A stretch of 64,000 bases of DNA. Origin: an uncultured Mycoplasma sp. (GTDB taxonomy: Bacteria; Bacillota_I; Bacilli_A; Mycoplasmatales; Metamycoplasmataceae). Below, piece by piece: positions 7,197 to 64,000 of this stretch; the stretch's first letter is position 1; each line of letters opens with the position of its first letter. Position numbers and translations under genes: made by a program. The notes beneath the pieces were generated by a model, which was given only the letters and a program-made list of their open reading frames with translations, did not search any database and had not been told where the DNA came from. The DNA lies in the NCBI GenBank assembly GCA_947040455.1, contig CAMRBN010000001.1, positions 114,646-178,645 on the forward strand. Reading direction: 5' to 3'.

Positions 7197-8318
7197 TTAT
7201 TTTTGTTTAATTTTTTCTTGAGGATTTTCTAAAATTAATGTTCTAGTCGCTTCATCTTTAAATAACTTTTTAGATTCTTGTACTTGTGATAATATATTTT
7301 TGATATGCTCTTCAATATCTTCAGATTCTAAAATCATTTTTGATTCATCAACATTTAAAGCTAAAATAGTAATTTGACTATATATATCAATATCAAATTC
7401 ACCAATGTATTTACATATAATGAATTCCTTGTCTTCTCCAATAATAGAGGTTAAAATATATCTAATTCTATCAATCATTTTTTTAGTTATATAAGGGGTT
7501 TTAATTGTTACTATAAATGTCTTCGAGGCTTCAAATGAACCATGAAATATTGGGTTTGACAACGCTTGAACAATTGACAAATCTAATCAATCAATTTTAG
7601 AGTTTGAAATTCCGATGGTAGGAATTATCTTATTTACAAAATTTTTATTGTTTGCATAAAATAAAGATTTAATTAATGAAAAGTGATCAGGATTTAAATC
7701 AGGTTCTACAAATGGAACTACAAATGATTCAATTAAATCTAAAACAAATCTAGAAATAAAATGCTTTCTATTAACTAAGTTGGCTTCTTCATAAGCTTCA
7801 ATAATTGTTGATTCAGCAATCGGAATAAAAGGTTGAGAAAACTTAAGCGCTTCTTTCTTTAATCTATTATAAATTTTATCTTCTGAATTACTGGTAATAA
7901 AGTTTTCAACTACACAATGAAAAGAAAATACATCATAACGATTTAATATATACGCTAATTCAATAACATAAGAAAGCATAAAAGAATCTTGTGATTTATA
8001 CAAAATGATTGCTAAATCAGCATTTGCAACAATATCTTTTATTGCTTCAATATTATTTTGGAAAAATACTGGAGCAGGAATAATTTTTTCATTTTCCCTA
8101 GGAGAATTTCACGATAAAAATGATTCTTCAAATTTATTTTTACCATTTGGGTTATTAGTAAAATTATTTTCTGTTCCTATCTTAAAGAATCTTGTGTTGG
8201 CTCTAATAGATTTATGAATATTTTCAAAATTACCTAATTCAGTATCTGAAAAATATATAATTACAGTATTTGCAACATAATCTTTTTTGACATTTTTTAC
8301 TTCTTTTTTATTAAACAT
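7197..8318 (-). CDS. FtsZ-like protein lacking the tubulin GTPase signature
   Basis: 373 aa, a typical length for mycoplasma FtsZ. The ATG follows AAGGACGG at eight bases. By eye the chain aligns end to end with the FtsZ core: NTVIIYFSDTELGNFENIHK in place of the VIGVGGGGxNAVN strand, FFKIGTE for FIAVNTD, IKDIVANADLAIIL (about 93-106) for the strand before the signature, then YKSQDSFMLS in place of GGGTGTG, FHCVVENF for GVVTRPF, and FIPIAESTII for LIVIPNDRLL. The C-terminal half matches the FtsZ_C layout (SNPIF / ISSPLL; ITILAL / VTVIATG). All glycine-rich phosphate loops are gone, so GTP binding is unlikely. It is monocistronic and not in a dcw cluster. Homology is my inference from pattern, not a search; an unrelated alpha/beta protein is the alternative. 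Confidence 0.6.
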
Positions 8319-25492: not shown

Positions 25493-28400
25493 TTAGAACA
25501 ATCCTGGAATTACTAATCCACCAATTAATCCTAAAGCTGCCATACTTATTAATATTGCAATAATCAACATTGTTTTAACAACAGGTTTGCTTGATAATTT
25601 TGAACGTTTTTGAGTTCCAGCTAATGAAACTGATGAAACAACAATCATTCCAACCGCTATCAATCCAACCAATATAGGTCACACTATTTGAACATTTACA
25701 AAAGGATTGATTTGAAATAAAGCTGATTCTTCTTCAATAATTCTATCCAGAATATCTATACTTGTTTTTATTTCATTTGAAAATACTTTAGTTTGAGATA
25801 AATTCATAGAAAAGTCAGTTGTATACAATTCTATATCATTACCAATTTTTTGAATACGAGATCATATAAAGATATTTCTATAAGAAGTTATTCCAGCATC
25901 CAATATATTCATAATTTTTGCTTGGTCTTTTTCTGGAGAAGTAATTCCTATTGGAGTATTTTCTTTTCTAAACATTAAAGAATTGTAAATGTTTGAAGAA
26001 GTAATTAAAGAACTAAGCATGTTGTATTCATAATTTTTTTCCAAAATATTAACTTTTTCTCTTGAACTAGGATTTAATTTTTGAATAATTGTATCAATCG
26101 CTGTAGCAAAATCAACATCTCCTCATTTTAATTCAATCGCACTTCCTGTTTTTAAAGAATCTTCTGTAATATTGTTAATTCCAAAACCAAATGTTGACAA
26201 TAATCTATCATAAATGTTAATTGAATTTATTTTTGTTTGTGATGCTAAAGAATCAAAATTTGATAATGTATCTTGATTAGAAGCAAAGCTAGTAAACAAG
26301 TCTAAAACTGATTGCTCTCCACCATTAGTAGAAATCGCACTAAAAATTGAGTTTCCAAAATATGTTGTTCTTAAATTATATTCTTTGACACCAAAGTATA
26401 GTAAATCAAATAATGACTTCATTTTTTGAGAACCAGTTAATACTTCTGCTGTCTCTAAAACTTTCGGATTTGAACCTGTTCAATTAAATAACCCTTCTGT
26501 TTCATCAAATTTTAAAAACGAATTAACATCAGTAATTTTTACTTTGTTATCAACATTTGAATCTAAATATTTCTTAATTTGTTTATAATAAAATTCATTT
26601 ATTGGATTAATTAATACATCTTTCATTTCTGAAAATTTAATTCTTATTAGTTCCGCAAGTTGTTTTTGAATTAATAAATCTTTATTTTGACTTGTACTAT
26701 CAATAATTAACTTAACATTATCTAAAATCAATTGTCTTTGAGCTTTATTTTCAATTGATAACAATCTCTCTTTTACAATATCATTCGCAGTCCCACCAAC
26801 ACCAACTTGATAAATATTTTGAACATTTCATGGTTCAGAAGGCATTAATTGTTCCATTATTTTTTGATATGTAGCATACTCATCCACAATACTAGAATAC
26901 ATTTCTTTCCCTGTGTAATCATTAGATTCACTTCTTCAAGATATATCTTTATAAACTTTTCCCTCTTGAGAATAAGATATTTTGTTGTAAAGTTTTTGAC
27001 CTAATTTTTCTTTCCCAATAATCGAATCATTTGATCATGATTCATAAATTTTAGCTAAATAAGCAATAACTTCACTTTCTGAATTAACTCACTTAGACGC
27101 AATAGATGTTGATAATGCAGGTTTTGTTGTGGTATCTGCAACAAAACCAGGGTCTTCAAAGAATATTTTCTTAGTTAAAACAGTATTTAAAGATACAATG
27201 AATCCAGTTCTTGAAGGAATAGGAACACCAGATATAGCAAATCCCATTAAATCATTAAAATAAAGACCTTGTTTGTAAATATTTTTAGTTGTTGAAGTTT
27301 CAGTTTTTAAAGAAATAGATAATTGAGATAGATCATCATCAGAAACACCCATCTCAGCCATTACTTCATCAGAAAACTCAACTTTTGTAGAACTTATGTT
27401 ATTGATTGCACCTGCAAGCACACCTAAAGCTAAAGATTGTTTTTTAGTAGCTGAAACTTTATCACCTTCAAAACCAAAAAGATCCTTATAAACTTTGTCT
27501 TGATTAGTTTGGTAAAATAAATTTAAATTAAACTCTGTGTCATTACCTAAATAATATTCATATTTTTTATTGATTTTTGTATTTGAAGTTCCGCCAACAT
27601 CTGTAGAATTAGCACTTGAAACCATTAAGTCTGTTGAAAAAAATTTAATGTTTGTTATTGTATCATCTGTTGGATAAGTTGGAACATTAGAATCTATTGT
27701 AGAATTTACAATTCCAAAATTTGAAATACCAGAAACTTTTATATTACTAAATTGATCTCCGTCTTTTAATTTAACTACAACAAAAAGTTTTCCATTGCTT
27801 TTTGATAATACAAAATTGTCCATAACTTGCTTAAAGTTATTTCCTGGATCTTCCAATGAATTCATTCCCAAATTAGTTCATCTACCAAAAATTTCTAAAT
27901 CAGATTGGCTTTTTGACAATTTAATACTTGTATCTGTAACTTGTTGATTAGCATTTCTAATAATTAAGCTACCTCTAGCTGTCATACCTGTCAATGATGA
28001 ATTTGAAAAATCAAAATCTAATTTAATATCTTCTGAAATTGATGCTAAATCAATTTCCGCGATGGTTATCTCTGTTTTATAATCACCCGTTAAAGCAATA
28101 TCAGTCATTGCACCCGTTGTAAGATCAACAACTTTAGATGGTTTATTGCTCAAAGATCTTATTCTATGAGAATCACTTGTACCTGAAACAAAACCTGACA
28201 GTGTTTTTATATTAGCATTTAATTCATCTTGTGTTCCCGCAATTGCTGCAAATTCTTTTCAACCAAGAGTACCTTTAATTGTTTCTCAAATAGCAATATT
28301 ACCTGATGCACGCAATGATTCTCTAACCACTAAATTATCAGATCATTTAATTAAATCAGTAATTTTTGAAATTATATATTTAAAAGATTTTGTTTCTGAA

Positions 28401-28735
28401 AATTGAGTGAAGGTTGTTTCCAAGTTTGTTTTAATGTCTGTTCATTGTTTTTTTGCATTCACTAATTTAGCTGTTGTTTCTGCAGTTCCTGTATCAGGAT
28501 TTAGAAATGTAAAATTTTTAAAATAAAATTCTGAATTTGTCAAACTATCTTTAGAAACTTCATTCAAACTTCTATTTGAATCATAAGAATTATTTGCCAC
28601 TTGGTTGCTAGATAATTGATTGATTGATGATCCAACAAAACCTACTGAAGATAATAATAAAGTTGTTGTAGATGCAGCTATAACTCCAAATGTTTTTAAA
28701 ACTGAATATGCTTTTTTATTTTTTGATTTATTCAT
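25493..28735 (-). CDS. Large membrane-anchored protein with a 950-residue exterior domain (ATPase-cluster partner)
   Basis: 1080 aa, no recognised domain. One hydrophobic segment near residues 14-35, then a long hydrophilic region, then two closely spaced membrane segments at the C-terminus (IVWPILVGLIAVGMIVVSS and MLIIAILISMAALGLIGGL). Many TGA codons encode Trp. The central part is Asn/Ser/Thr-rich with regular helical stretches (for example around ENKAQRQLILDNVKLIIDS) and no cysteines of note. Its ATG lies two bases after the stop of the 12-TM protein, so the two are cotranscribed. Proteins of this size and topology accompany F1-like ATPase loci in mycoplasmas; I infer that it is the exterior arm of the same machine. 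Function unknown. Confidence 0.7.
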
Positions 28736-28737
28736 AT

Positions 28738-30222
28738 TTATGCCCCAATCTTATCTTGTGTTTTCACACCTTGTTTTTTATTTTTTTCACTCACTTCAAT
28801 TTCTTGAGTATTTTTTAATTTTTCGTTCTTATTATTTTTGTCTTCATAAGATATTTTTGAATAACTCAATAATTTAATTCCTAAGTTTATTGAAGAAGCA
28901 ATTAAGGCTGGTAATAAAGTTAAAATTATCATTTCTACCCCTTCAAAAATATTTGCTGCTGATTCTTGAGGAAATGTTGATTGAAATAAGACCATACCTA
29001 ATATTGCTAAATAAGCAACAACATTTACAATGGTAGATGTTGTATTTTTAATATTTGGAAAGTTAACACCAATTAAAATTGTTGAAATATTAATCACAAA
29101 TATTGCAATGAAACAAGTAGATAAAGACATATAAGCAGATATATCAACACCTTTAGCTAATCCAGCAATAATAATAGTTTTAATTAATATAAATCATGAT
29201 ATAAAGTCCATTAATATTGAATTATCAATACTTGATATCAACATATTTGTTTTACCTTTTTTACCCATTTTTTTAAATCATATAATTATCGCTACATATG
29301 TAATTAATATAACAGCATCTATAGACATAGAAACAATAGATAAAATTTCAATTTGATTCCCTGATCATACCGATAAAATTGGTAAAGCTTTTGTGATACC
29401 TAGAATTACCAAAGATAAAGCAGGCATTAAAATCATTAAGAAAGAAATATTTCTAAAGAAATCTATTTTTTGTATTTCTTGTTCTGTTTTGTTAGATAAT
29501 ATCAATTCTTTAAAAGTTCTAACATATGTAAATGAGAATGAAGTATATAAGAATCCCAATACAAATATAATTAATTGAGTTATCAAAAGAACTGTCGACA
29601 TTTGAGGCATAATTGAAATTCCTCATGATACCATTGCCAAAGTTGGAAAAATAATCATTGTAAATAAAGATAACTTAACTTTTAGTCATGAAGTAGGGAA
29701 AGCACCTTTTATCTTATATGTAGTAAAAAGTAATATTGATCCCATAAAAACAAATCAAGAAATTAATCCAATTCCAAAAACTAATGAACGAATTTGTGAA
29801 ACTTTCACAATTTCATCTATTGTTCCATCAGCAGGATAAGCAAATAAAGGAATAGACATAATTATTATTATTAACGATAATAATAATGCATTAACTAATT
29901 GCACAATATAATAATTAACAATAAAGAGTTTTTTTAGAGAGCCCTTATATACCCAAGAAATTAAACCCATTGAAAATAAACCCACAAATAAACCTATAAA
30001 AATATTTATAAAATCTATATATTGAAATTCCAACTTTGGAGATTGTGCTCCTGAAAACAAGAAAGATAGAGATAATAAAGAAATAAATAATGAATACATA
30101 AAATAAGAAGCTGCCTTCAAATAATTATCTCACCTTATTTTTTTAGTTAAAATATCTTTATTTTGTGTAATATAACCCTTGTTTCTTTCAAGGTCTAAAG
30201 ATTGTGTTGCTTCGTATGCCAT
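28738..30222 (-). CDS. 12-TM membrane protein of the F1-like ATPase neighbourhood
   Basis: 494 aa with about twelve hydrophobic helices separated by short loops, a hydrophilic N-terminus of 35 residues and a charged cytoplasmic C-terminal tail (KNNKNEKLKNTQEIEVSEKN-like). It matches no transporter family I recognise: no conserved charged pairs, binding-site glycines or ABC/MFS motifs. A good Shine-Dalgarno (AAGGAG, six bases) precedes the ATG. It is followed at once by the 1080-aa protein. Because the locus has no F0 a or c subunit, this protein is the best candidate for the integral membrane part of the machine, by inference only. Confidence 0.72.
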
Positions 30223-30342
30223 AGTTTTCTCCTTAATTTAATAATTTTTTTATAATTATAACACTTTAAATGTTAATTATATTTATTTTTAAGTATTTAT
30301 ATTTAATACTTTTTTATATGGTTTTTTAAAATTATCTTAATT

Positions 30343-31749
30343 TTATGAGGGCTTGAAACCTTTTGTAATATATGCTGTGTAAGGGTAACTTGCCTTAGGA
30401 TTAACTTTATTTTTTACCTCAACCTCAATAACAATGGCTGGTTTTCCTGATAAAATTACTTCAGAAGCCATGGTTACTTGGTATTCAAATTCTGGATATG
30501 ATGTATTACTAAATACAAATGCTTCAAAGTTATTAGAATTTATAATTTCTTTAATAGTTTTATTTTTGTAACTTGGAGAAATTGTAGGTTTTATTGTTAA
30601 TCGACCATAATCATCACTATTAATAATATTATTCAATTCATTTTGTTGAACTGACAACAATCCCGTTAACTTAGTTTCATATATTTTTGTATTAATACTT
30701 TCGTTTTGTGAAACCATGACTTTTACTACTAAAGATTCTTGTTTGACATCATCTTGTTCAGTTGTTGCTGAAATTATTTTGTAATTAAATTTTGGTATAG
30801 ATGGTAAATCTTTGAACATTAAGTATTTTTGAGAATTATTTTGATTAATAGATTCAATTACATCAGCTGCGGTTGGTTGAACAAAGGGATCATTTATCAC
30901 AATAGATAATTCTTTAGCATTTTCTATGAAATTAGAAGAATCTAAATTATAAAAATCTTTTATCATAACAGTTCCAGAAGAATTTTCTGATAATCCATCA
31001 TTAATCCCAAATAATATAATTGTTTTTCCTAATATAATGTTTGATGCGATTTGATTGTTTAATTCTTTATCAGTCAAAGTTGTTCCTAATTCTTTAAATC
31101 TAACTATAAAACTTTGTACTTGTTCAACAGTTGAATTACCATCTATGGTTAATAATGCATTTAATTTTGCACCATTATTGTTGTACACAAAACCCGATGA
31201 CTCTGCTTTAGAAAAAAAAGGTGAGTTAATAGTAATTGAGTCTGCAGTTACTGTTGTTCCAGGTTCAGGAAGTTTTGTAGTGTCAACACTCGAAGAATAA
31301 TTTGGTAATTCAAAAATTGTTTGTTGAATAACTGTTTGTGCAGAAATTTGAGAATTAGCAAATATATTTGTTAATTGAGTTGTATATTTAAGGCTCTCAT
31401 TATTCTTGTTGGTTATCTCTACTTCAACTTCTAAATTATTGACTGATTCTAATGATTTTTTAGATATTATTTTATAAGTCAAACTTGAATCATATCCTTT
31501 TACTTTTTCAAAAATAAAATCTTGATTTGTAGCATATAATTCCATTCACTTTGAAGAATATTTAGTCATTTTTTCACTAACTTTTGGCGCTATCTTCATT
31601 TGCATAGCTATATCTAAGTGTTCGGACGGAGTTTTTGTATTCTCTTTATAATAACTCATTACTGCTCATCCACTAGACGATGCACCTACACAAGCTAACG
31701 TTGAACCAACACCAATAATTATTCATTTTGCTTTTTTTGATATATACAT
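30343..31749 (-). CDS. Membrane- or lipid-anchored repeat protein of the ATPase cluster
   Basis: 468 aa. N-terminal hydrophobic segment WIIIGVGSTLACVGASSS with a Cys in a weak lipobox context, so either lipoprotein or single-pass anchor. The exterior part contains about three copies of a beta-rich unit: LTYKIISKKSLESVNNLEVE..., FNYKIISATTEQ...LVVKVMVSQ, and FEYQVTMASEV...IVIEVEVKNK, each ending in a Y-x-T/K-x-L strand. Related units are seen in the 150-aa, 440-aa and 1121-aa proteins of this locus. No enzyme motif. The stop lies 120 bases before the 12-TM gene. Function unknown. Confidence 0.7.
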
Positions 31750-31858
31750 TAAACCTCTTTAATTAATATTTTAATTCATATAATATTTTAATTCATAAAT
31801 TATAATACTTTTTTAATATTTTTATTTAAATTTATTAATATTCCTAAAATCAAATTAA

Positions 31859-34800
31859 TTATATATTATTCTTGATTAAATATTGCATTTTAGTAATTAA
31901 ATTAATGCCTGAATTAATATCATTATATACAATATTTGAATCACTTCCAGGTTTTACGGTTGCATTGATTCCAGAAAACGCACTATCATTAATAACTAAA
32001 ATATTTGATAAATCAATTTCAACTTGGTTATTGGAAAGTTTTAAATCCCTTAAAAAACCAGAAGATACAAAATAAATATCTTTATTAAATTTTATTTTGT
32101 CAATTTTTAATCCATTTAAATTTTTAATATTTTTAGTTATTCAATCTGAAGTTAAAATCATTTCCTTAAAATAAAGCACTCCATTTTCTAAGCTTCATGG
32201 TAATTTATTTGATGCAACAGAAGGAATAGGTGCTCTATCAACATATCTTCATTTATTTGTAGAAAAAGCACTTGCCGAAACATATATAACAGAATTAGGT
32301 ATGATAATTTTTTTCAAATTATCATTTTGAACAAAAGAACTATGTGTTATTTCAGCTTTTACACCATTTTCAAAAATTAAATCAGTAATGTTGTTTCCTT
32401 GAAATGAGTAATCGCCTAAAATTTTTAAATTTGATTTAAATCTTAATTCTCCTTTTAAATTATTGAATTTTTGTATATTAGAATTTTGAAAGGCATATTT
32501 GCCTATTATGTCAACCTTTTCCAAACCTACAACTTCATTAATTTTAATGTTTTGAAATATATAGTCATGTATCTTTCTTTCTCCATAAATACTCTCGGGA
32601 TCTTTAATCGTTAATTTGTTAATGGATTCTATATTCGTTTGCGAAAACCTTGAAATAGATGATTGATTTTCTGGTATCAAATCTAAATCTCAAATAACTT
32701 CTTCTATTTTAATCTTTTCTGTAAATAAAATATTTATTTGATTAATTGCATCTTCATAAGATTCATCAGAGTGATTTTTTGCAAAACTAAAATCAATAAC
32801 TACGCTTCCGTTGTTGTCTGAAACTAATCCCTCAATAAATTTTGATTTGTCTTCTATATTTATTTTAACACCCCCATCAAAAGAAGTTTTGGTCATTTTA
32901 GGAATAATACTAAAATTAGCTGATTTCAATTCTTTATTATTTAAAAATGCAAATGATCCAATAGATTTTATATTAGACAAACTAATTGTTGTTAAATGAT
33001 TTTGATTAAATGTATTATCCAAAATAATTTCTATTTTAGGGATTAATATCGAAGTTAGATAATTATTTTGAAAACCCCCTGTACCAATGGAAGTTACTTT
33101 AGGAAGATTTATAGAATTTAAGGTATTGTTGGAAAAAGAATTTTGGCCAATCTTAACAGCCAAAGGCATATTTAAATCACCTTTTAATGAAGATTTATAA
33201 AAAGCAAAATTGCCAACTTCTTCGATATTATTCAAAATATTTGTTTCTACTTTAGAAAGATTAATATCATAAAATGCATATTGAGGAATTGTTTTTATAT
33301 TTGTGGGCAATGTTAACCTTGTTATATCTATTGTCAAATATTTAATATTAGTATAAAAATTATCCACAAATATATTCGCTGAATTTTCCAAATTTAAATG
33401 GCCATCAACTAATATATTGATTAAATTTTCTGGCATATCTCTAATTACTTGCGCTCTTGAATTTGTTATTGAATTTACTAAACCATTTTCCAATAAACTT
33501 GTTTGGTTGGATATATAAATTTTATTAGGATTCTCAATATTTGATGTTTTAAATATATGTTGAAAATTTAAAGATGTTGGAGAAGCGTGATTTTCTAAAT
33601 GTAAATTTTGAACTATATTATTATTTGAATTTCCAGAATCAAAATAATTATTTAAATTATTTTTATAATCAGGAATATGATTAATTAAAGATTCTAAATT
33701 AAGAGTGCCATTTTTTACTAAATTAATAATTTGTGAATTAAATATCCTGTCAATAATCATGTTGCTTCTCTTAATTAATTGCATATTAATTGACAAGATT
33801 TTTTCTGAAATAATTAAATTTTTAATTTTTCATTTATTTAATGATAATTCATTATGTATATTAATATTTTCATTTCCATCCAAAATAACTTCATCAATAA
33901 TTAAAGTTAGTCCATTCATTTCATTTATAATTTTTTTTACTTGAGGGTCGCTGGATTGTTCGAATAATTTGCCATTCAATTTAATTGTATTAACTATTAG
34001 TGAATCTGGTTTATGACTTAATAATTTTAATAAATCTAAAAGTTCTTTAAGAGTTTTTATATTTTCGTGAAAAAAATTCATTGTTTTAGTTTTTTTATCA
34101 TAATATAAGCCAAGTCCAAATGAAAGTAAGTTTTTAAATTTTACATTAGAATCAAAAGAATTATTGTGTATTATTTTTATTTTATTTTCAGTGTCAAAAA
34201 CTAATATCTTATTGTTTAAAAACAATCTATCGCTCAACTCAACCACTTCACTTGGTAGTTTGATAGATGTAATAAAGTTTGATTCAAAATAACCAGTATT
34301 AATTTCTGCATTTTTCAACTCTCAATTTCTAAATTCAGAAAGATCAAGTTCTCCATAAACAGCTTTGCCTAATCATTTTTCATTAAATTTTATAACATCA
34401 TTGGTTGTTCTATTAACAAAAAGCACTTCGGCATTTATTCCTAAATTATCTTCTGAATTAATTTTTACACCTTCATTATTTACAACAAAAACATAAAGTG
34501 GTTTTTGGGAATTTTTAAAGTTATTTGTTATCGATATCGATAATTCTTTATTTAATTTTTTTTCACTTTTATCATTAATCAAATAAAAATATCCAATAAC
34601 TAATTTTTGATTATTAAAATCATATCTAGTTGTTTTGATATCGTTATTAAATTCAAAAGCAAATCCTGGAGGACATTGAATATCTAATATATTTAATCAC
34701 TCTTTACTTTCATTTTCTTTTGGCAAAAAAGTTCTTAAGAATTCTTTCAAAGTATATTTATTTTTATATTCTGTTTTTAAATTTAGAGATTGAAAATATG

Positions 34801-35224
34801 ATGTTACCGTTCTATCATAACTATGTCAAGACATAAAACCAGAAACCACGGAAGTAGTTTCTATCACTTTGTTTCCAATTGCAATAGAAATATTAAACTC
34901 AATTTTAGTTCCATCTATTATTTTGGAATAATCGAATTTAACACCGACATCTTTGCCTATGATTAAATTTTGAAAATCTGAAGATAATTCAAAATTATTC
35001 AAAGAAGTTTCAGGATTGCCAATATATAATTGAGCAGGATACTGCAAAATATTTGATGCTTGTTCTTCATTTGGAACAATAATTACTGAATTATTTTCCA
35101 AAAAATCATTTATCAAATTAATTGATAAATCCTCTGAGCTACTACATGAAGATAGCACAACAATAGGAGATGCGATGGTTGACAACAACATTATTGTCTT
35201 AAATATTTTCTTTTGTCTAATCAT
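31859..35224 (-). CDS. Very large BspA-like leucine-rich-repeat lipoprotein
   Basis: 1121 aa. Signal peptide with lipobox VVLSSC at about residue 27. The first 350 residues are beta-rich; from about residue 480 to 960 there are leucine-rich repeats of the LRR_5/BspA type (KTIPQYAFYDINLSKVET, NIEEVGNFAFYKSS, VKIGQNSFSNNTL, VTSIGTGGFQNNYL, IKSIGSFAFLNN, VDIIGKYAFQNSN, LKILGDYSFQGNN). Reading depends on several TGA = Trp codons; all segments are in one frame. BspA-like proteins bind host matrix or mediate contact between cells. It lies 23 bases after the 150-aa anchored gene, within the ATPase-associated run, so it may be the outermost component. Confidence 0.78.
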
Positions 35225-35247
35225 AATTCATTATCTAAAACTAAACA

Positions 35248-35700
35248 TTAATCAAATGGTTTATATTGCTCAAAAGAATCGGTATACTCCGAGTAAAATT
35301 CGCTAACCCTCGATATTTTAACACTTGGGTCAGTGATTAAATAAATGGTATAATCAAAAGTTAAAGTTGAGTTTTGAGATACAGGTGTAACTTTTGTTAT
35401 TTCGATATTATAAGAACGATTTTTTAATTCATTTTCTTTAGAAAAAGTAATATTTTTTACAACTACATTTTCCACCAAATGTTGACCATTAAGATTTGGT
35501 TCAGGCTCAGAAATCACAAAATTATTTTTTTGAAACAAAGAGCTTTCTTCTGCATTAAAAAAATCAATTATTTTTTTTTCTTCTGGTGTCATCTTATTAC
35601 TATTATAAGCATACATTGATGCAATTACAATTGCAGGAGTTCCAATTGCAATAATTGAACCTAATGTTATTAATGCTAATTTAGTATTTTTGTTTTTCAT
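35248..35700 (-). CDS. 150-aa single-pass anchored protein of the ATPase cluster
   Basis: 150 aa. One N-terminal membrane segment (LALITLGSIIAIGTPAIVIA) and an exterior domain of about 110 residues that carries one copy of the beta unit shared with neighbours (SYNIEITKVTPVSQNSTLTF). No cysteine lipobox. It contains no TGA codon. Located between the 36-residue membrane peptide and the large LRR lipoprotein. Not recognised beyond this. Confidence 0.65.
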   Translation of the reverse strand: MKNKNTKLALITLGSIIAIGTPAIVIASMYAYNSNKMTPEEKKIIDFFNAEESSLFQKNNFVISEPEPNLNGQHLVENVVVKNITFSKENELKNRSYNIEITKVTPVSQNSTLTFDYTIYLITDPSVKISRVSEFYSEYTDSFEQYKPFD

Positions 35701-35749
35701 TTTAACCTCTATTTTACTTTATTGAAAAAAGTACATTATTTTCACGCAA

Positions 35750-35860
35750 TTAAATTGCTAAAAAAATCAACAAAGTAATTGTAAATATCAACACTACTGC
35801 AAATACTAATCCACTAATCAATATATTGTTTTTTTTCTTATTTTTGTTTTTTTCAAACAT
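35750..35860 (-). CDS. 36-residue single-pass membrane peptide
   Basis: Too short for ordinary gene finding. Starts MFEKNKNKKKNNILI, with a strongly basic cytoplasmic tip, then one hydrophobic helix ending FLAI-stop. AAGGAC lies four bases before the ATG, and two TATAAT-like boxes lie further upstream behind the terminator of the ATPase genes. Position (between F1-like beta and the exterior proteins) and positive-inside topology support a real gene that could be a small membrane adaptor. Without homologs this remains tentative. Confidence 0.5.
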   Translation of the reverse strand: MFEKNKNKKKNNILISGLVFAVVLIFTITLLIFLAI

Positions 35861-35903
35861 GTTAAGTCCTTGTAAATTATATTTATTTTTTTAAATATTT
35901 AAA

Positions 35904-35928
35904 ATTATATCATAAATTAATAATTATA
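35904..35928 (-). promoter_or_regulatory. Candidate promoter (-10 boxes) for the downstream half of the ATPase cluster
   Basis: Two TATAAT hexamers on the minus strand (35928-35923 and 35909-35904), between the terminator after the beta-like gene and the 36-residue peptide gene. No convincing -35. They suggest that the membrane/exterior genes have their own transcription start. Confidence 0.35.
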
Positions 35929-35955
35929 ACATTGTTTTAAATATAATTTATTATT

Positions 35956-35980
35956 AAAAAAACACCTTTGAATAGTGTTT
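35956..35980 (-). terminator. Intrinsic terminator after the F1-like beta gene
   Basis: Short stem AAACAC / GTGTTT with a nine-base loop, followed on the minus strand by a run of seven or eight T. About 50 bases after the stop of the beta-like gene. The stem is only 6 bp, so read-through into the exterior-protein genes is likely. Confidence 0.5.
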
Positions 35981-36029
35981 CTTCAATAATATATCATTAA
36001 TCAATTTTTGATCAATTATGTATTTTTAA

Positions 36030-39666
<3,637 letters not shown>

Positions 39667-39683
39667 AAATATCCCCTTATTTT

Positions 39684-40277
39684 TTATTTCCTTATCTCTC
39701 ATGCCACTATTGACTTTAATAATACTTTTTTCGAAACTTTAATCACACTGTCTTGATGCTCTAAAAGTTTAAAGACATTATTATTTTTAGAATAATTCTC
39801 TGCCGAGAAATAATTCGATAATTGACTATATTCTTTCAATGCTGGTTGATTTTTAGAAATTTCTAACATATTTTCCAATTCTTCCAAATTGATGGTTTTC
39901 AAATTTGAAAAGTTTTTATAAATTTGAATTAGCATCTTGTCAGGAATTATATCAAATTTACCATTCAACATAACCAAATCCCCTAACTGATTCGATACCC
40001 TCATGACATCTTCTGCCATAACAAAAGATGTTTTTTCTTCATTTGTTGAAGATTCTCTATCTTTATACTTTACAACTAAAGCAGCTACATCATAAATTGT
40101 TATAATGTCAGAAGTGCTACCTCTTACTTTAAATGGTACACCCAACATTAATTCAACAGGTTTATAATCTACAGTCAATATTGTTATGCTAGTCACTATT
40201 TGACTTTCATCTAAATAGATCAATTTAAGTAAATCAGGATTAATGGCTGTAGTTAACGTTAATTCTCTTTTTTCCAT
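39684..40277 (-). CDS. 197-aa protein of the F1-like ATPase operon (possibly epsilon-like)
   Basis: No confident family. The first 110 residues are predicted beta-rich (LELTLTTAINP-like start, IITIYDVAALVVKYKDRE, SFVMAEDVMRV), which would suit an epsilon-type beta sandwich; the rest is helical. It ends ...SIVAWEIRK with a TGA-encoded Trp, where the standard code would stop early. The start overlaps the gamma-like gene by one base (TAATG). Order gamma-like, this gene, alpha-like, beta-like differs from the ATP synthase operon. The epsilon assignment is inference from position and strand pattern only. Confidence 0.6.
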
Positions 40278-41299
40278 TATTCCACCGCCCCTTTCACTTT
40301 AACCAAAGCAAATTCTTCTTCTTCTTCCCTTACTTTAAATGCTGCATATAGTAATAGAGATTGCATTGTAGACTCTTCTTTTCTAGTTCTATTATAAAGC
40401 ATTTTTAAATCGAATTGTTGTTCAGATAATTTATTTTTTTTCTCTTCAAGTAATTGAAGTTCTAAATTATACTGCTCAATATTACTAAGAATTTTAGTTT
40501 CATAAATGTTTTGCCTAATAATTGTTTTAGTTAATTGTTCATGCAATACATAGATGTTTGGGTTTCATTCCGCTTTATCAATGTTGATGTTAGACATAAT
40601 TTTCTTATGATGCAATATATATTCTTGCATAGATTTTATTTTAGTTTCATCAGTTGGTTCATCATTGCTAGTTCTTAATTTTTGTTTTTTGTCATTAGAG
40701 TTTGATAAAATATTTTCAAAAGGTAGAATTTGTTTTGAAACAACTGGTTCACTATGTAAGTTAGATGCTTGAGTAATCATCATTAGTGCTTTACTAAATA
40801 AATTATTTTTTATTCCTATTTCAACTAATTCACTAACCTTTTGAGAAAGTCCTTCTAAATCTTCAAATAATGAATATTCAAAATGCTCAATAACATTTAA
40901 TTCTAATTTTTGACAAATCGTATTAACATTAGTTCCAAAAGTAATAATATAGTCATTTGGAGTAACTACTTTAACAAGAGTTTCTTCTAATTTATCAAGC
41001 ATATTTTTTGAATATACATCTAATTTTTTTGGATCAACTAAGAAATACATAGTAGAATTAATTTTAGTTTTTTCAATTTTTTCGTTATCTCTATCAAAAA
41101 ACATTATTCCTCTTTTAACAAATCAACGTTCTTCCACTGCATTTAACAAATTCAAATTAACTGTTTTTAAATTTTGAATATTTTCTAATTTATTTACTTC
41201 TTGATTTAATAATTGCAAAACACGTATTTTAGATATTTCAACAAAGTTTAAAAAGAAAGTTAATTTTTCTGACTTATCTTTGACTTCTTTTAATTTCAT
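40277..41299 (-). CDS. F1-like ATPase gamma-like subunit
   Basis: 340 aa. It has the layout of F1 gamma: a long N-terminal helix (MKLKEVKDKSEKLTFFLNF..., where gamma has IKxRI-S), a central alpha/beta domain (STMYFLVDPKK ... DYIITFGTNVN), and a long C-terminal helix of about 110 residues rich in Lys/Glu ending RKEESTMQSLLLYAAFKVRE. This two-helix shaft would sit in the alpha-beta ring. Sequence similarity is too low to be certain. The ATG follows AAGGGG. It overlaps the next gene by one base. Confidence 0.65.
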
Positions 41300-41325
41300 A
41301 CAAAACCCCTTCTTCTTTTAATATT

Positions 41326-42147
41326 TTATTTTTCTTTTTTTGGATTGCTACCTAAAGAAAGTACAAGTTTGTTAAAACCACTTGCTGCTTTTTCATCAAC
41401 AAATAACGAAGTAATTCCACTAACTCCTCTAACCAATAAAGTTCCGATAAAAAATTCAACTTCATGTCCATTATTAAGGGCATTGTCCAACAATTTTATA
41501 AATGAATCAATAATTAAATAATTATTTCCTTCATTTTCTACCAATGAAGTTCATTCAACTATTCCGATTGGTGGCAATAATTTTGGATTTGCAATAGCAA
41601 CTGGAATTATTTTAGATTTATCAAAACGAATAACATCAATAATTAAAATTGGATTTAATACAACTGGATATCCTAAAATAATTTTTTGCATTACTGCATT
41701 TAAAAAATGATTTAATGTTTTTTCAACTTCATCTATAGTGATAATTACACCATCATAAATATAAATGTGTGTTTGCAAAACAAGATCTTTAATAGAAAAT
41801 TTTGTATTTCTTTGAAAAACTTCATTATAATTTCATACTGATTTATTTAATACTAAATTGTAACTTTCATATGAATCAATTGAAGATAACGGTTTGGCGT
41901 TTAAATCATTAAAGTGTTCTTCCAATGCATTTATTTTTTCAATTCTCATTTTTGAATCTTCTTCAATAAGTTCTTTTTCTGTTCTAACTACCGAAAAAGC
42001 TATTTCTTTTGTTTGTGAAATAATATCTTCATAAGATAATGTTCCTGCAAACTTTTTTCCCTCTTGCACAGATTTTGGTTCAAAAGAAACATTGTTCTCC
42101 AAATTATTTTGTTTATTTACTTCTAAGTCTCTATTTTTTTCTTGCAT
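41326..42147 (-). CDS. 273-aa protein, first gene of the F1-like ATPase operon
   Basis: Not recognised. The N-terminal 110 residues are charged and helical (KEIAFSVVRTEKELIEEDSK); the rest alternates strands and helices (IYIYDGVIITIDEVEKTLNH, LNPILIIDVIRFDKSKIIPV). No membrane segment. GACGAGGGA lies five bases before the ATG and a TATAAT box about 60 bases upstream, so the operon seems to start here. It may correspond to one of the conserved soluble proteins of the mycoplasma F1-like X0 loci. Confidence 0.6.
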
Positions 42148-42209
42148 ATAATTCCCTCGTCTTGATTTTTCAAAAATATTTTAATAAATTAATAAAATAA
42201 ATTTTCTCA

Positions 42210-42215
42210 ATTATA
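42210..42215 (-). promoter_or_regulatory. -10 element upstream of the F1-like ATPase operon
   Basis: TATAAT on the minus strand preceded by TATG, in the 200-bp gap between the 440-aa lipoprotein and the first ATPase gene. The rest of that gap is AT-rich and holds one 11-bp hairpin (42237-42267) without a T-tract. Confidence 0.35.
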
Positions 42216-42348
42216 ACATAATATTATTTTAATTTTAAACATTTATTTTAAATATCAATAAATGTTTTAAAAAAATTTTCTTTATGTCATAAATAAATCA
42301 TTAATATTATAAATCATTAATTAAATTTAATCTTAAAAAAATAATAAA

Positions 42349-43671
42349 TTATAGCAATTGTTTTATATTTATTATTTTATTAACACTTTTTGACATTTCA
42401 AAATTTGAATTACCGACTTTGATCAACATAACAAAAGTCAGAAATGTGTCAGAACTAGAGCTTACTGAAGAAATACTAACGGAAACTAATTTTGTTGGTT
42501 CAACACTATATTGTTGTTGAAAAACAGGTGGCACAAATATTCCGCCAGGTGTTTCAGTATTTATTTTTAAAATTTCTTCAGTATTTTTCCCAATAATCAA
42601 TCCTGGATTTTTTACCGTTGGCATAAAAGCAAGTGAGCTACTTTCAATTCTTTGCCCAATTTGAGAAGCCATTGAAGAATTTTTACTTGTATGTGTCGAT
42701 ATATTATTTTCTGTAGGATATTTAAAAGTAACATTTGGTTCATAAAAATAATAAAATTTACTAAATGAAAGATTATATTTTTCTTTGGCATAAGCCATTA
42801 CAGTACTATTAAAATAATTATCACTAACTGGAGTAACTTTAATTTTATAAATACCTTTCCGTGGATTAGATTCAACAAAGTCTACAGAATCAATATTAAA
42901 ATTATATTGAGTGTTGTTTGATGAAGTACGATTAGGTGGTTCAATTAATCTTTCTACCGAATAAGCATCCATGGCAGAAAAATTAGAAGCATTTTTTTTA
43001 ATAATAATTGGTCTATTATTTATTATTGAATCTTTCGAATAAAAATCTATATTAAAATTCTTACTTTTTTCAAAAATATCTTGCCTTATAGCTTGGAATT
43101 CATATCTTTTATTTTTATTATTTTTATCAATACCATTATATACATACATAGATGCTTCTAATTCTCTTGGTTCTTCTGTGGTTTCGTTTTCTATAATAAT
43201 AGTTTTCTCAGTATTAATTGTAAAAATTTTAGGTTTTGTAATAAATTTATTTGAATCTCTCAACCCAACATTAACATTAATTTCAAAATTAATATTTCCT
43301 TCACGATCAAAAGAAACAATATCTTTTTTAGTAAAATCTCATGAATAAAAAATACCATATTTATCATTAGTTTCAGCTATTTTAGGATCAGGTAAGATAA
43401 AAATATTTGATAATTGTTCATTGTTATTAATATTCATTTCAGAATTAGTCAATTGTTCATTGTTTGCACCTAAGTCCAATAAATGTATTTTATCCAATTT
43501 TAAATCATTACTAATCTTTAATTTTGTTGTATCTTTTAATTCCAAATCTAATAATTGATTTTCAATAGTATTATCAGAATTATTTGAACAAGATAAAAAA
43601 AATGTAATGGGAGCTATAGAAATAATGGACATTCCTAGAAATAATATTTTTTTAGTAAATTGTTTAGTCAT
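42349..43671 (-). CDS. Lipoprotein upstream of the F1-like ATPase operon
   Basis: 440 aa. Signal peptide and lipobox TFFLSC near residue 28; strong AAGGAG Shine-Dalgarno. The exterior domain is Asn/Ser-rich and mostly beta; it contains two units like those of the other cluster proteins (GIYKIKVTPVSDNYFNSTVM and VSVSISSVSSSSDTFLTFVM). That shared unit, and the colinear position, argue that it belongs to the ATPase locus although a 200-bp gap intervenes. No enzymatic motif. Function unknown. Confidence 0.7.
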
Positions 43672-43728: not shown

Positions 43729-44472
43729 TTATCTCAAAGCTCTAGCTGCAAACATAAGAACATTTACAAAGTCTATGAATAAACGAATTCCAAATATCAA
43801 ACCCAACCTTGTTAAATCTTGATTTGACATACCACCCGAAGATTCTATTTGATCAGATGTTCTTTGAATTCATCAAATATCAAAACCTATTCACAAAGAA
43901 AATATTACAATACCCATTAATGAATATCACTTTTCAGCTCTATCACCACCGAAGAAAATTAAAAAAATCGAAAAAATCATTAACCCTATTGTTGCAAACA
44001 TTAAAAATGGACCAATTTTAGAAAAATCAAATATTTTAAAAAAACCCAGTATACCCATTAATACAAAAATACTTGAAGGCACCAAAAATAATAAAAATAC
44101 ATTCTTCATTCCCTCAGCTTGAACACTAAATCCCGAATAATATAATGTTGATGAAACGAACAATCCTTGAATGAAAACAAAAACCATGTACATTAAAATC
44201 AGTGTTGATAAATTCAATCTTTGAACTAGAAGCGACATCCCTATTACTAAACCAATATTAACAACAAAAAGAATCGGTCATCCTTGTGATGTTGCTATTT
44301 TAGAAACTATATCCCCTATTGCTGGAACAGACATAACTAAATATGTCATTAAAAAAATAATAGCTACACCTAAACCCATTCACATTAGCGAATAAGATAT
44401 TAATCTATTTTTAGTTGAAGCTTTTTCTGCTGATTTTTGAAAAATCTTTGGAAAACTTTTATTTGAGTTCAC
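43729..44472 (-). CDS. Bax inhibitor-1-like (UPF0005/YbhL-type) membrane protein
   Basis: 247 aa with about seven hydrophobic helices. The penultimate loop and last helix (LTRLGLIFGIRLFIDFVNVLMFAARAL) resemble the BI-1 family end, in which a D-x-x-N/Q element precedes the last helix. GTG start, preceded by GGGGGATC, inside the end of degV (14-base overlap). BI-1 proteins in bacteria are pH-sensitive Ca2+ leak channels; the assignment here rests mainly on topology and the C-terminus. Confidence 0.6.
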
Positions 44473-45364
44473 CTTTTGATCCCCCAATCTTATCAAAATC
44501 ATATTTTTCAATATCATATTTTAATTTTAAAAAACAAGGAGTAACCGCTTCTAATCCAGTATGTATTGCAATTACAGGAGGAATAAATAATTCTATAAAT
44601 GGTTGTTTTTGTTTAGTTAATGAATTAATTTCTTGCATTAATAAATCTTTATCAACATTATTAGAATGACCAAACATAATTACTCAATCTTCAGATGATG
44701 AATTTAATTTTTTATAAATTTCAAATGTTGTATTGACTACTGTTTTGCTAAAAATTCTACCTTTTCCATATTTTTCTAATTTACCTTTTTTCAAAGTTAT
44801 TATAGGAACTATTTTTAACAATTTTGCAAGTTTAGCAGATGAAGGAGACAATCTTCCTCCTCTAACTAAATTATCATTAAATTTTGGAAAAAGAATCATA
44901 TTATTTAAGTCTCTAGGTGTTTTGTTTTCAATAATGTCTATACCTTCTTCAATAGTAAATTCTTTATTATTCACTCCGATTTCTAATTCAACCATCTCTT
45001 TAACAATAGGAATAGAAATATTTTCAGAATTAATAACATGAACATTTTCATATTTCTTAGAAGCCAATAGGACATTTTTATATTGAGATGATAAATGTTT
45101 TGAAATAGAATAAAAAACTACAAATGTATCAGGTTTAGATATTTTCTTTAATAAATTGTCAACTTGAAGAACTGAAGAGCAAGAAGTAGAAACTACTGAT
45201 TCCACTTTACAAATGTCAAAAAAATTACTTGAAGTGATTTCAACCCCATCTTCATATTCTTTACCGTCAATAGTTATGTAAAGGGGTAAATAAAATCAGC
45301 CTCTTGCTTCTGCTTCTTTTTTTGTCAATCCTGATGAAGAATCTACTACCATTACTAATTTCAT
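44459..45364 (-). CDS. DegV-family fatty-acid-binding protein
   Basis: 301 aa. N-terminal VMVVDSSSGLTKKEA and WFYLPLYITIDGKEYEDGV (with TGA-encoded Trp) are the family start; STSCSSV carries the lipid-binding Ser pocket and NLVRGGRLSPSSAKLAKLL is the conserved second half. DegV/FakB proteins present fatty acids to the FakA kinase for incorporation into phospholipids, suited to an organism that imports its fatty acids. A TATAAT box lies nine bases before the ATG without Shine-Dalgarno. Confidence 0.9.
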
Positions 45365-63130: not shown

Positions 63131-63799
63131 TTATTTGTTTTCTTTTTTGTTACTTTCTTTCTTTAAATACAAAGAGTAACTAGTTGCCATTATCACAGTA
63201 ATTGTTCCTATGGCAAAAAAAGATGCTCCAGTAATAAATAACGAGTCTCACATTTGATAATTGTCAAGTCTTGAAATATCATCTTTTGATTGATTCATTT
63301 TAGTAATTTTTTGATTATTATCTTTAATGCTTTGTTTTAAGGTCAATATTTCAGGACTATTTTTGCCATCTTCCAATTTAGTCTTGGCTGTGTTCAAAAG
63401 ATTTTTATTAGCATCTGTTCTGTTTTTGTCAAATTCAATTTGAGCTTTATCAACTGCTTCTTTAAGAGCAATTAATTTATCTTGTTCAATTATTAATTCA
63501 GCTTCTTCTTTTTGAATAAGTGCATTTAAAGCATTGTATTCAATACCACCTATTTTATCAGATTCTATTTTTAAGTTTTTTTTCAAATGATCAACATACA
63601 TTTTTTTTGTATCATAATCAGTTGTTTTTTCTTTTTCAAATGCTGTATTAATTCCGAAAAAACCAGAATTTTGTATTTCTGGTAAAGTATTTATATTATT
63701 ACCATACCCTCCAACAATAAAACACGATATTCCAATCGTTGCTATAGAGGCGGACAATATGGTTGTAATGGATAAAGTTTTTTTTAGATTTATTTTCAT
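63131..63799 (-). CDS. Membrane protein with a coiled-coil exterior domain
   Basis: 222 aa. N-terminal hydrophobic segment (SITTILSASIATIGISCFIVGG, with Cys but no clear lipobox), a central coiled coil of about 130 residues (KEEAELIIEQDKLIALKEAV; TAKTKLEDGKN), and a C-terminal membrane helix (FITGASFFAIGTITVIMATS) with a basic tail (KKESNKKENK). One TGA encodes Trp. Not recognised. Topology suggests a hairpin-shaped surface protein; mycoplasma adhesion or structural role is conceivable, not shown. Confidence 0.65.
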
Positions 63800-63949: not shown

Positions 63950-64000
63950 TTAATTATTTTTTGAATAATTTGTTGTTATTAAGTTTTTTATTTCTTTTAA
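63950..64000 (-). CDS. C-terminal fragment of a gene cut by the window edge
   Basis: A frame open to the right edge ends LKEIKNLITTNYSKNN-stop just before a strong terminator on the same strand. That placement suggests the end of a real gene; the 16 residues are too few to say what it is. Confidence 0.4.
   Translation of the reverse strand, partial: LKEIKNLITTNYSKNN

Follow-up and report, generated by a model that had tools for sequence, protein, structure and literature searches.

A run of genes on the minus strand of a 64,000-nucleotide stretch of DNA from an uncultured Mycoplasma sp. (hereafter the window), between positions 25493 and 43671, almost certainly encodes a Type 2 (G1-ATPase) motor of the kind found in the gliding machine of Mycoplasma mobile, as judged from its protein sequences. 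We put at about 60% the probability that this Type 2 locus belongs to a gliding or surface-pulling machine in which leucine-rich repeat (LRR) adhesins have replaced the Gli349 leg. The window forms the right-hand end of contig C1 in an 820-kb assembly of 16 contigs, 98.96% complete, and it was compared with 320 genomes of the order, among them 12 of its own genus (g1, with subclades A and B) and four of a second genus, g13, carrying a Type 2 gamma subunit. Read with genetic code 4, the genes, their coordinates, their common strand and the intact catalytic motifs were those given by an initial annotation of the sequence. From upstream to downstream the run comprises:

42349-43671, minus strand: lipoprotein of 440 amino acids (aa), directly upstream of GliD; lipoprotein cysteine read by eye
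41326-42147, minus strand: GliD (MMOB1620-like), 273 aa, bridge subunit of the twin motor, matching subunit D of PDB 9io5
40277-41299, minus strand: G1-gamma (MMOB1630-like) shaft, 340 aa, NF045862
39684-40277, minus strand: MMOB1640-like internal gliding protein, 197 aa, NF045864
38059-39702, minus strand: G1-alpha (MMOB1660-like), NF045863 and 9io5_D
36030-38069, minus strand: G1-beta (MMOB1670-like), NF045858 and 9io5_A
35750-35860, minus strand: 36-aa peptide with a single transmembrane (TM) segment, between the beta and LRR genes
35248-35700, minus strand: 150-aa protein with one N-terminal TM segment, conserved in subclade A
31859-35224, minus strand: 1121-aa LRR lipoprotein, PF13306; lipoprotein cysteine read by eye
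30343-31749, minus strand: 468-aa protein, N-terminal anchor assigned by eye
28738-30222, minus strand: 12-TM protein, MMOB1610-like, 494 aa, labelled from its TM count and its place in g13
25493-28735, minus strand: 3-TM protein, MMOB1650-like, 1080 aa with a large exterior part, labelled from its topology, size and place in g13

The assignment to Type 2 is carried by the soluble subunits. Alpha, beta and gamma exceeded the cut-offs of the NCBI gliding models NF045863 (824.2 bits, cut-off 600), NF045858 (1045.4 bits, cut-off 850) and NF045862 (361.7 bits, cut-off 250), and the 197-aa protein that of the MMOB1640 model NF045864 (238.1 bits, cut-off 100). Among solved structures, the best match of alpha, beta, gamma and GliD was in each case the M. 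mobile G1-ATPase twin motor, PDB 9io5: alpha with 9io5_D (E 2.7e-200), beta with 9io5_A (E 2.3e-223, residues 119-673), gamma with 9io5_G (E 1.6e-60) and GliD with subunit D (E 1.4e-83, residues 17-264). The beta subunit carries about 200 additional N-terminal residues, the alignment with 9io5_A starting only at residue 119; in the known Type 2 system, an N-terminal extension of beta provides PGK docking and a dimer contact, and the additional residues may correspond to it. P-loops, catalytic Glu and arginine finger were all found in alpha and beta, with the motifs GDRGTGKT and SRLG intact in the former and GGAGVGKT and GERIREG in the latter. In several relatives alpha starts about 12 codons later. 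The initial annotation had linked type 2 to the MIB-MIP system and type 3 to gliding; PMC12994834 and PMC7052211 give the reverse, with Type 2 as the gliding motor and Type 3 as the MIB-MIP motor, an assignment also drawn from PMC11864180 and PMC3369863. According to PMC11864180, the G1 motor has been reported in four species. Type 2/G1 relatives of the M. mobile machine are on record for M. pulmonis, M. agassizii and M. testudineum.

The proposal of an accessory F1-like motor that has a membrane sector of its own and is linked to surface proteins is upheld. No F0 genes lie within the motor cluster, as had been noted. A second alpha/beta pair was found above cut-off elsewhere in the genome. 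These two pairs are the only ones above cut-off, and the second is presumably the normal Type 1 ATPase. Hydropathy analysis counted 12 TM segments in the 494-aa protein and three in the 1080-aa protein. Both were compared with what four g13 genomes carry at the MMOB1610 and MMOB1650 places; they align along their length at 19-23% identity, with profile matches of E 4e-21 and 1e-51, respectively. The MMOB labels derive solely from g13 gene order, size and published topology. Since the MMOB1650-like profile matches 15 of the 16 genomes with a Type 2 gamma above cut-off, with one further match over 126 positions at E 2.5e-4 among the 320 genomes, the 12-TM/3-TM pair is standard Type 2 equipment; these two proteins, relocated downstream of beta, are thus not new. 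The structure model of the 1080-aa protein (predicted local distance difference test, pLDDT, 75.8; predicted template modelling score, pTM, 0.50) had no match in the PDB at E <= 0.001.

A Type 2 gamma above cut-off was present in 16 of the 320 genomes, namely the 12 of g1 and the four of g13, and 35 further genomes gave matches below cut-off. In the alpha tree the 12 g1 genomes are grouped at 99/99 and split into subclades A (seven, including the window genome) and B (five). The order 1610-GliD-gamma-1640-1650-alpha-beta, found in 4/4 g13 genomes, is not kept in g1, where it is rearranged to lipoprotein-GliD-gamma-1640-alpha-beta followed by an LRR gene, which in subclade A comes after the 36- and 150-aa genes. 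The 468-aa, 12-TM and 3-TM genes are placed further downstream of the LRR gene in subclade A. In subclade B the 12-TM/3-TM pair lies elsewhere and comes after an anchored protein roughly 600 aa long (G139, G140, G147 and G148), an arrangement not found in G149, which is 70% complete. The 468-aa protein is related to this protein of about 600 aa (profile E 5.8e-7 over 174 columns); it has no TM segment above the hydropathy threshold. Distant gamma-like genes also occur in two other genera, in genomes G016 (locus L083, E 1.9e-25) and G138 (L078, E 5.7e-16), G016 having in addition a GliD-like gene with 28.6% identity; these may represent an additional type of F1-like cluster.

The lipoprotein and LRR genes accompany the motor in g1. 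The initial annotation had made the significance of the cluster depend on whether its exterior genes co-occur with the ATPase genes in other genomes, and they do: the 440-aa lipoprotein precedes GliD in 9/9 contigs reaching that far, and an LRR lipoprotein or a relative follows beta in 8/8 contigs extending more than 140 bases past it (G000, the window genome, and G139, G142, G143, G144, G145, G146 and G148; the G146 contig reaches no further than the first 275 residues of this protein). The contigs of G140, G141, G147 and G149 end in or just after beta and were left out of this count. In a search scoring up to five candidates per genome, the 440-aa family was matched in full length in 11 of the 12 g1 genomes, G146 giving a fragment, and outside g1 it was matched in 35 of the 320 genomes only within the first 162 of its 424 positions (best E 8.5e-7). 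In full length the family thus appears to be confined to g1 among these genomes. Among 5.8 billion proteins it has at least 16 members (7995 candidates scored). Its structure model (pLDDT 78.7, pTM 0.74) had no clear match among PDB structures. The 1121-aa protein matches PF13306 (BspA-type LRR) at E 1.2e-31, in agreement with the initial annotation, and the subclade B LRR lipoproteins match it at E 7e-22 and 7e-21. The 36-aa peptide was found in five of six subclade A loci, including that of the window (not in G145), and not between the beta and LRR genes in two subclade B loci (0/2). Relatives of the 150-aa protein are present in G142, G143, G144, G145 and G146.

According to PMC7052211, Gli349 is essential to M. 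mobile gliding, and its foot carries an LRR and a serine essential for binding. The Gli349 model was above cut-off in 4/4 g13 genomes and in 0/12 g1 genomes, where its match was confined to the LRR segment, at about positions 2660-2815; G140 gave no match to the model whatsoever. The same kind of repeat was detected in the g13 Gli349 of G134 (LRR_5, residues 2739-2829, E 6.3e-12). Because LRR candidates crowd this first search, it was repeated with a second profile of 2600 columns, with the foot/LRR left out and all candidates scored, which again gave 0/12 in g1 and 4/4 in g13. In G143 and G144 the region before the Gli521-like gene, where gli349 stands in the g13 genomes G134 and G136, holds no such gene. 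As a side observation, the Gli349 gene of G136 (L079/L080) has a stop codon within it, and a transposase-like gene, recognised by eye, separates it from the Gli521 gene.

By contrast with Gli349, the Gli521 crank appears to have homologues in g1: a profile of its C-terminal (hook) part matched 8/12 genomes (G139, G140, G141, G142, G143, G144, G146 and G148). The hook is matched in subclades A and B alike, the rod clearly in subclade A. In G143 and G144 the Gli521-like protein is encoded by a single gene (4534 and 5591 aa, respectively), which lies some 20 kb upstream of the motor genes. In the window, 45 bases at 63954-63998, two bases from the right edge, correspond to a Gli521-like C-terminus and stop codon, all 14 residues being identical to those that end the 4534-aa G143 protein; since these edge codons encode its C-terminus, the window genome has a Gli521-like gene. 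Residues 1-900 of the g13 Gli521 had no match in g1, and no oval was found in G143, G144 and G139, whose N-termini are assembled. Instead, the Gli521-like proteins of G143 and G144 are headed by an LRR block (about residues 140-1000): PF13306 matches the G143 protein at E 2.8e-134 in nine stretches, and the LRR pattern ranges over residues 143-963 in G143 and 147-1021 in G144. The G143 head is up to 48% identical, over 544 residues, to resident LRR surface proteins of the window genome, a resemblance that suggests domain exchange.

Some further observations concern these giant genes. A run of LRR surface proteins in the window genome (G000 C1:56000-74000, L124), up to 48% identical to the G143 head, is a possible donor family. 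The Gli521-like proteins of G143 (L121) and G144 (L122) match one rod stretch several times in tandem, so that the rod seems to have been lengthened by repeats; the contig may break at the window edge for this reason. G139 has four or more giant genes of the Gli521-like kind (L109, L118, L119 and L120), which encode some 2600-3400 aa or more, three of them cut by the sequence stretch or the contig end; they form a paralogous family.

A further part of the gliding machinery is P42, which in the window scored 415.1 bits with NF045859 (cut-off 280) and was above cut-off in 10/12 g1 genomes; G149 has a fragment of it, and in G140 it was not found. The relevant features of the window outside the motor run are:

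7197-8318, minus strand: P42 (Gli42), gliding machinery protein, NF045859
16217-18001, minus strand: second LRR lipoprotein, 594 aa, PF13306 (E 7.3e-26), standing apart from the motor genes
43729-44517, minus strand: MAG0110-family membrane protein, above the NCBI cut-off, directly upstream of the 440-aa lipoprotein
63131-63799, minus strand: 222-aa protein, with relatives encoded after the Gli521-like gene in G143, G144 and G146
63954-63998, minus strand: last 14 codons and stop of the Gli521-like giant gene, truncated where the contig ends

Taken together, the g1 machine shares with that of M. mobile alpha, beta, gamma, GliD, the MMOB1640-, MMOB1610- and MMOB1650-like proteins and P42, and apparently also the N-terminal extension of beta and a Gli521-like rod and hook. 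It differs in the leg, since Gli349 is there in M. mobile and was not found in g1; in gene order, the 12-TM gene standing before GliD and the 3-TM gene before alpha in M. mobile, and after beta or elsewhere in g1; in the LRR and other lipoprotein genes near the motor; and, in two subclade A genomes, in the LRR that stands where the oval domain of the crank homologue would be. BspA-type LRR surface proteins (PF13306; HupY/LrrG-like) have the kind of repeat seen in the 1121-aa protein and at the N-terminus of the G143 crank homologue; in g1 such repeats are tied to a gliding-type motor through gene position or fusion.

By analogy with M. mobile, the motor likely acts on the Gli521-like protein. 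In such a machine, alpha3-beta3 would turn gamma in the F1 fashion, and the 12-TM and 3-TM proteins would transmit the motion through the membrane to the Gli521-like rod and hook. The host surface could then be gripped by the LRR block of the Gli521-like protein (in G143 and G144), by the LRR lipoprotein, or by both, the outcome being gliding of the cell or dragging of its own surface. Mounts or adaptors for the altered surface part may be provided by the 440-aa lipoprotein and the 468-aa protein. We infer from this gene set that the cells may glide, with gripping probably passed from Gli349 to LRR proteins. A more specific version is that the machine has become legless and its crank has turned into the foot: a BspA-type LRR would have replaced the oval of the Gli521-like protein and Gli349 would have been dropped, so that the G1 motor would pull directly on the surface by way of a crank tipped with LRR, with the LRR lipoprotein encoded in the motor run helping. 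We offer this version tentatively and consider it possible rather than probable.

Several observations weigh against a gliding or surface-pulling machine with LRR adhesins. Gliding has not been seen in g1, in which the three named genomes are uncultured Mycoplasma metagenome-assembled genomes, and with Gli349 absent these cells may be unable to glide. The name Gli521 in g13 is a label given from size and from the place beside Gli349, as published. The Gli521 C-terminal profile had no match in 4/12 g1 genomes, namely G000 (the window genome), G145, G147 and G149. The LRR-crank fusion is known from G143 and G144 only, the gene of the window genome being cut off, and the Gli521-like protein of G139, from subclade B, had no Pfam match and no LRR. 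In subclade B the membrane pair is not located by the motor. Matches to the MMOB4860-like protein were weak, in 10/12 g1 genomes, all below cut-off. As regards the LRR genes, 3/14 control genomes likewise gave a below-cut-off match to the LRR part of the Gli349 model; over the region compared, the likeness between the LRR lipoproteins of the two subclades is just 21-28%, and against the subclade A profile those of subclade B are outscored by four other LRR proteins; finally, g1 genomes contain many BspA-type LRR proteins, so that an LRR gene near the motor may be incidental.

Some of these points would fit a motor that has been retained without gliding, for another surface task such as lipoprotein release, remodelling or pulling, comparable to the presumed use of Type 3 for MIB-MIP. 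The failure to find Gli349 in any of the 12 g1 genomes agrees with this, as do the lipoprotein genes adjoining the motor and the Type 3 precedent (MIB-MIP, PMC12994834). On the other hand, the Gli521-like crank homologue and P42, both parts of a gliding machine, have been retained, and we judge such a task unlikely, although it deserves serious consideration.

Distinctly less credible is ordinary gliding of the M. mobile type with a Gli349 too diverged to be detected or lost in assembly. Long repetitive genes do break assemblies, and the Gli521-like gene of the window genome is itself cut at the contig end; besides, g1 genomes do match the Gli349 model in its LRR segment, and the 468-aa family has a weak match to Gli349 residues 36-175 (E 4.7e-4, probability 32%). 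Nevertheless, two Gli349 profiles found 0/12 where the Gli521 profile matched 8/12, and the two genomes with an assembled single-gene crank have no gli349 upstream of it.

That the LRR and other lipoprotein genes were merely inserted by the motor, as a chance neighbourhood, we regard as improbable, slightly more so than a hidden Gli349. The abundance of LRR lipoproteins in g1 genomes and the lack of a clear one-to-one relation between those of subclades A and B are in its favour; yet the places of the LRR and lipoprotein genes are constant in both subclades though the membrane pair moved, and among the 320 genomes the 440-aa family is found in full length in g1 only.

A Type 3 F1-like X0 ATPase of the MIB-MIP kind is very improbable: the general gene set is alike (alpha, beta, gamma, 12-TM, 3-TM) and both would be accessory F1-like motors joined to surface proteins, but the window subunits remained below the cut-offs of the Type 3 models MSC_0618/MSC_0619 (beta 381.5 against 570 and alpha 368.8 against 520) while passing those of the gliding models, the two alpha/beta pairs above cut-off in the genome leave no separate Type 3, and the surface genes are those of LRR and unknown lipoproteins.

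A literature search covering titles and abstract openings, with most subscription papers outside it, returned no report of the g1 genus or of an LRR-crank fusion. The presence in g1 of the motor, of a crank homologue and of P42 without a detectable leg suggests that the force-making core is separable from an exchangeable gripping part. The genus would thus offer a natural test for telling force transmission across the membrane, through a 12-TM/3-TM pair about 22% identical between genera, from the choice of target. If our reading is true, the F1-like motors of mycoplasmas would be coupled to differing surface proteins.

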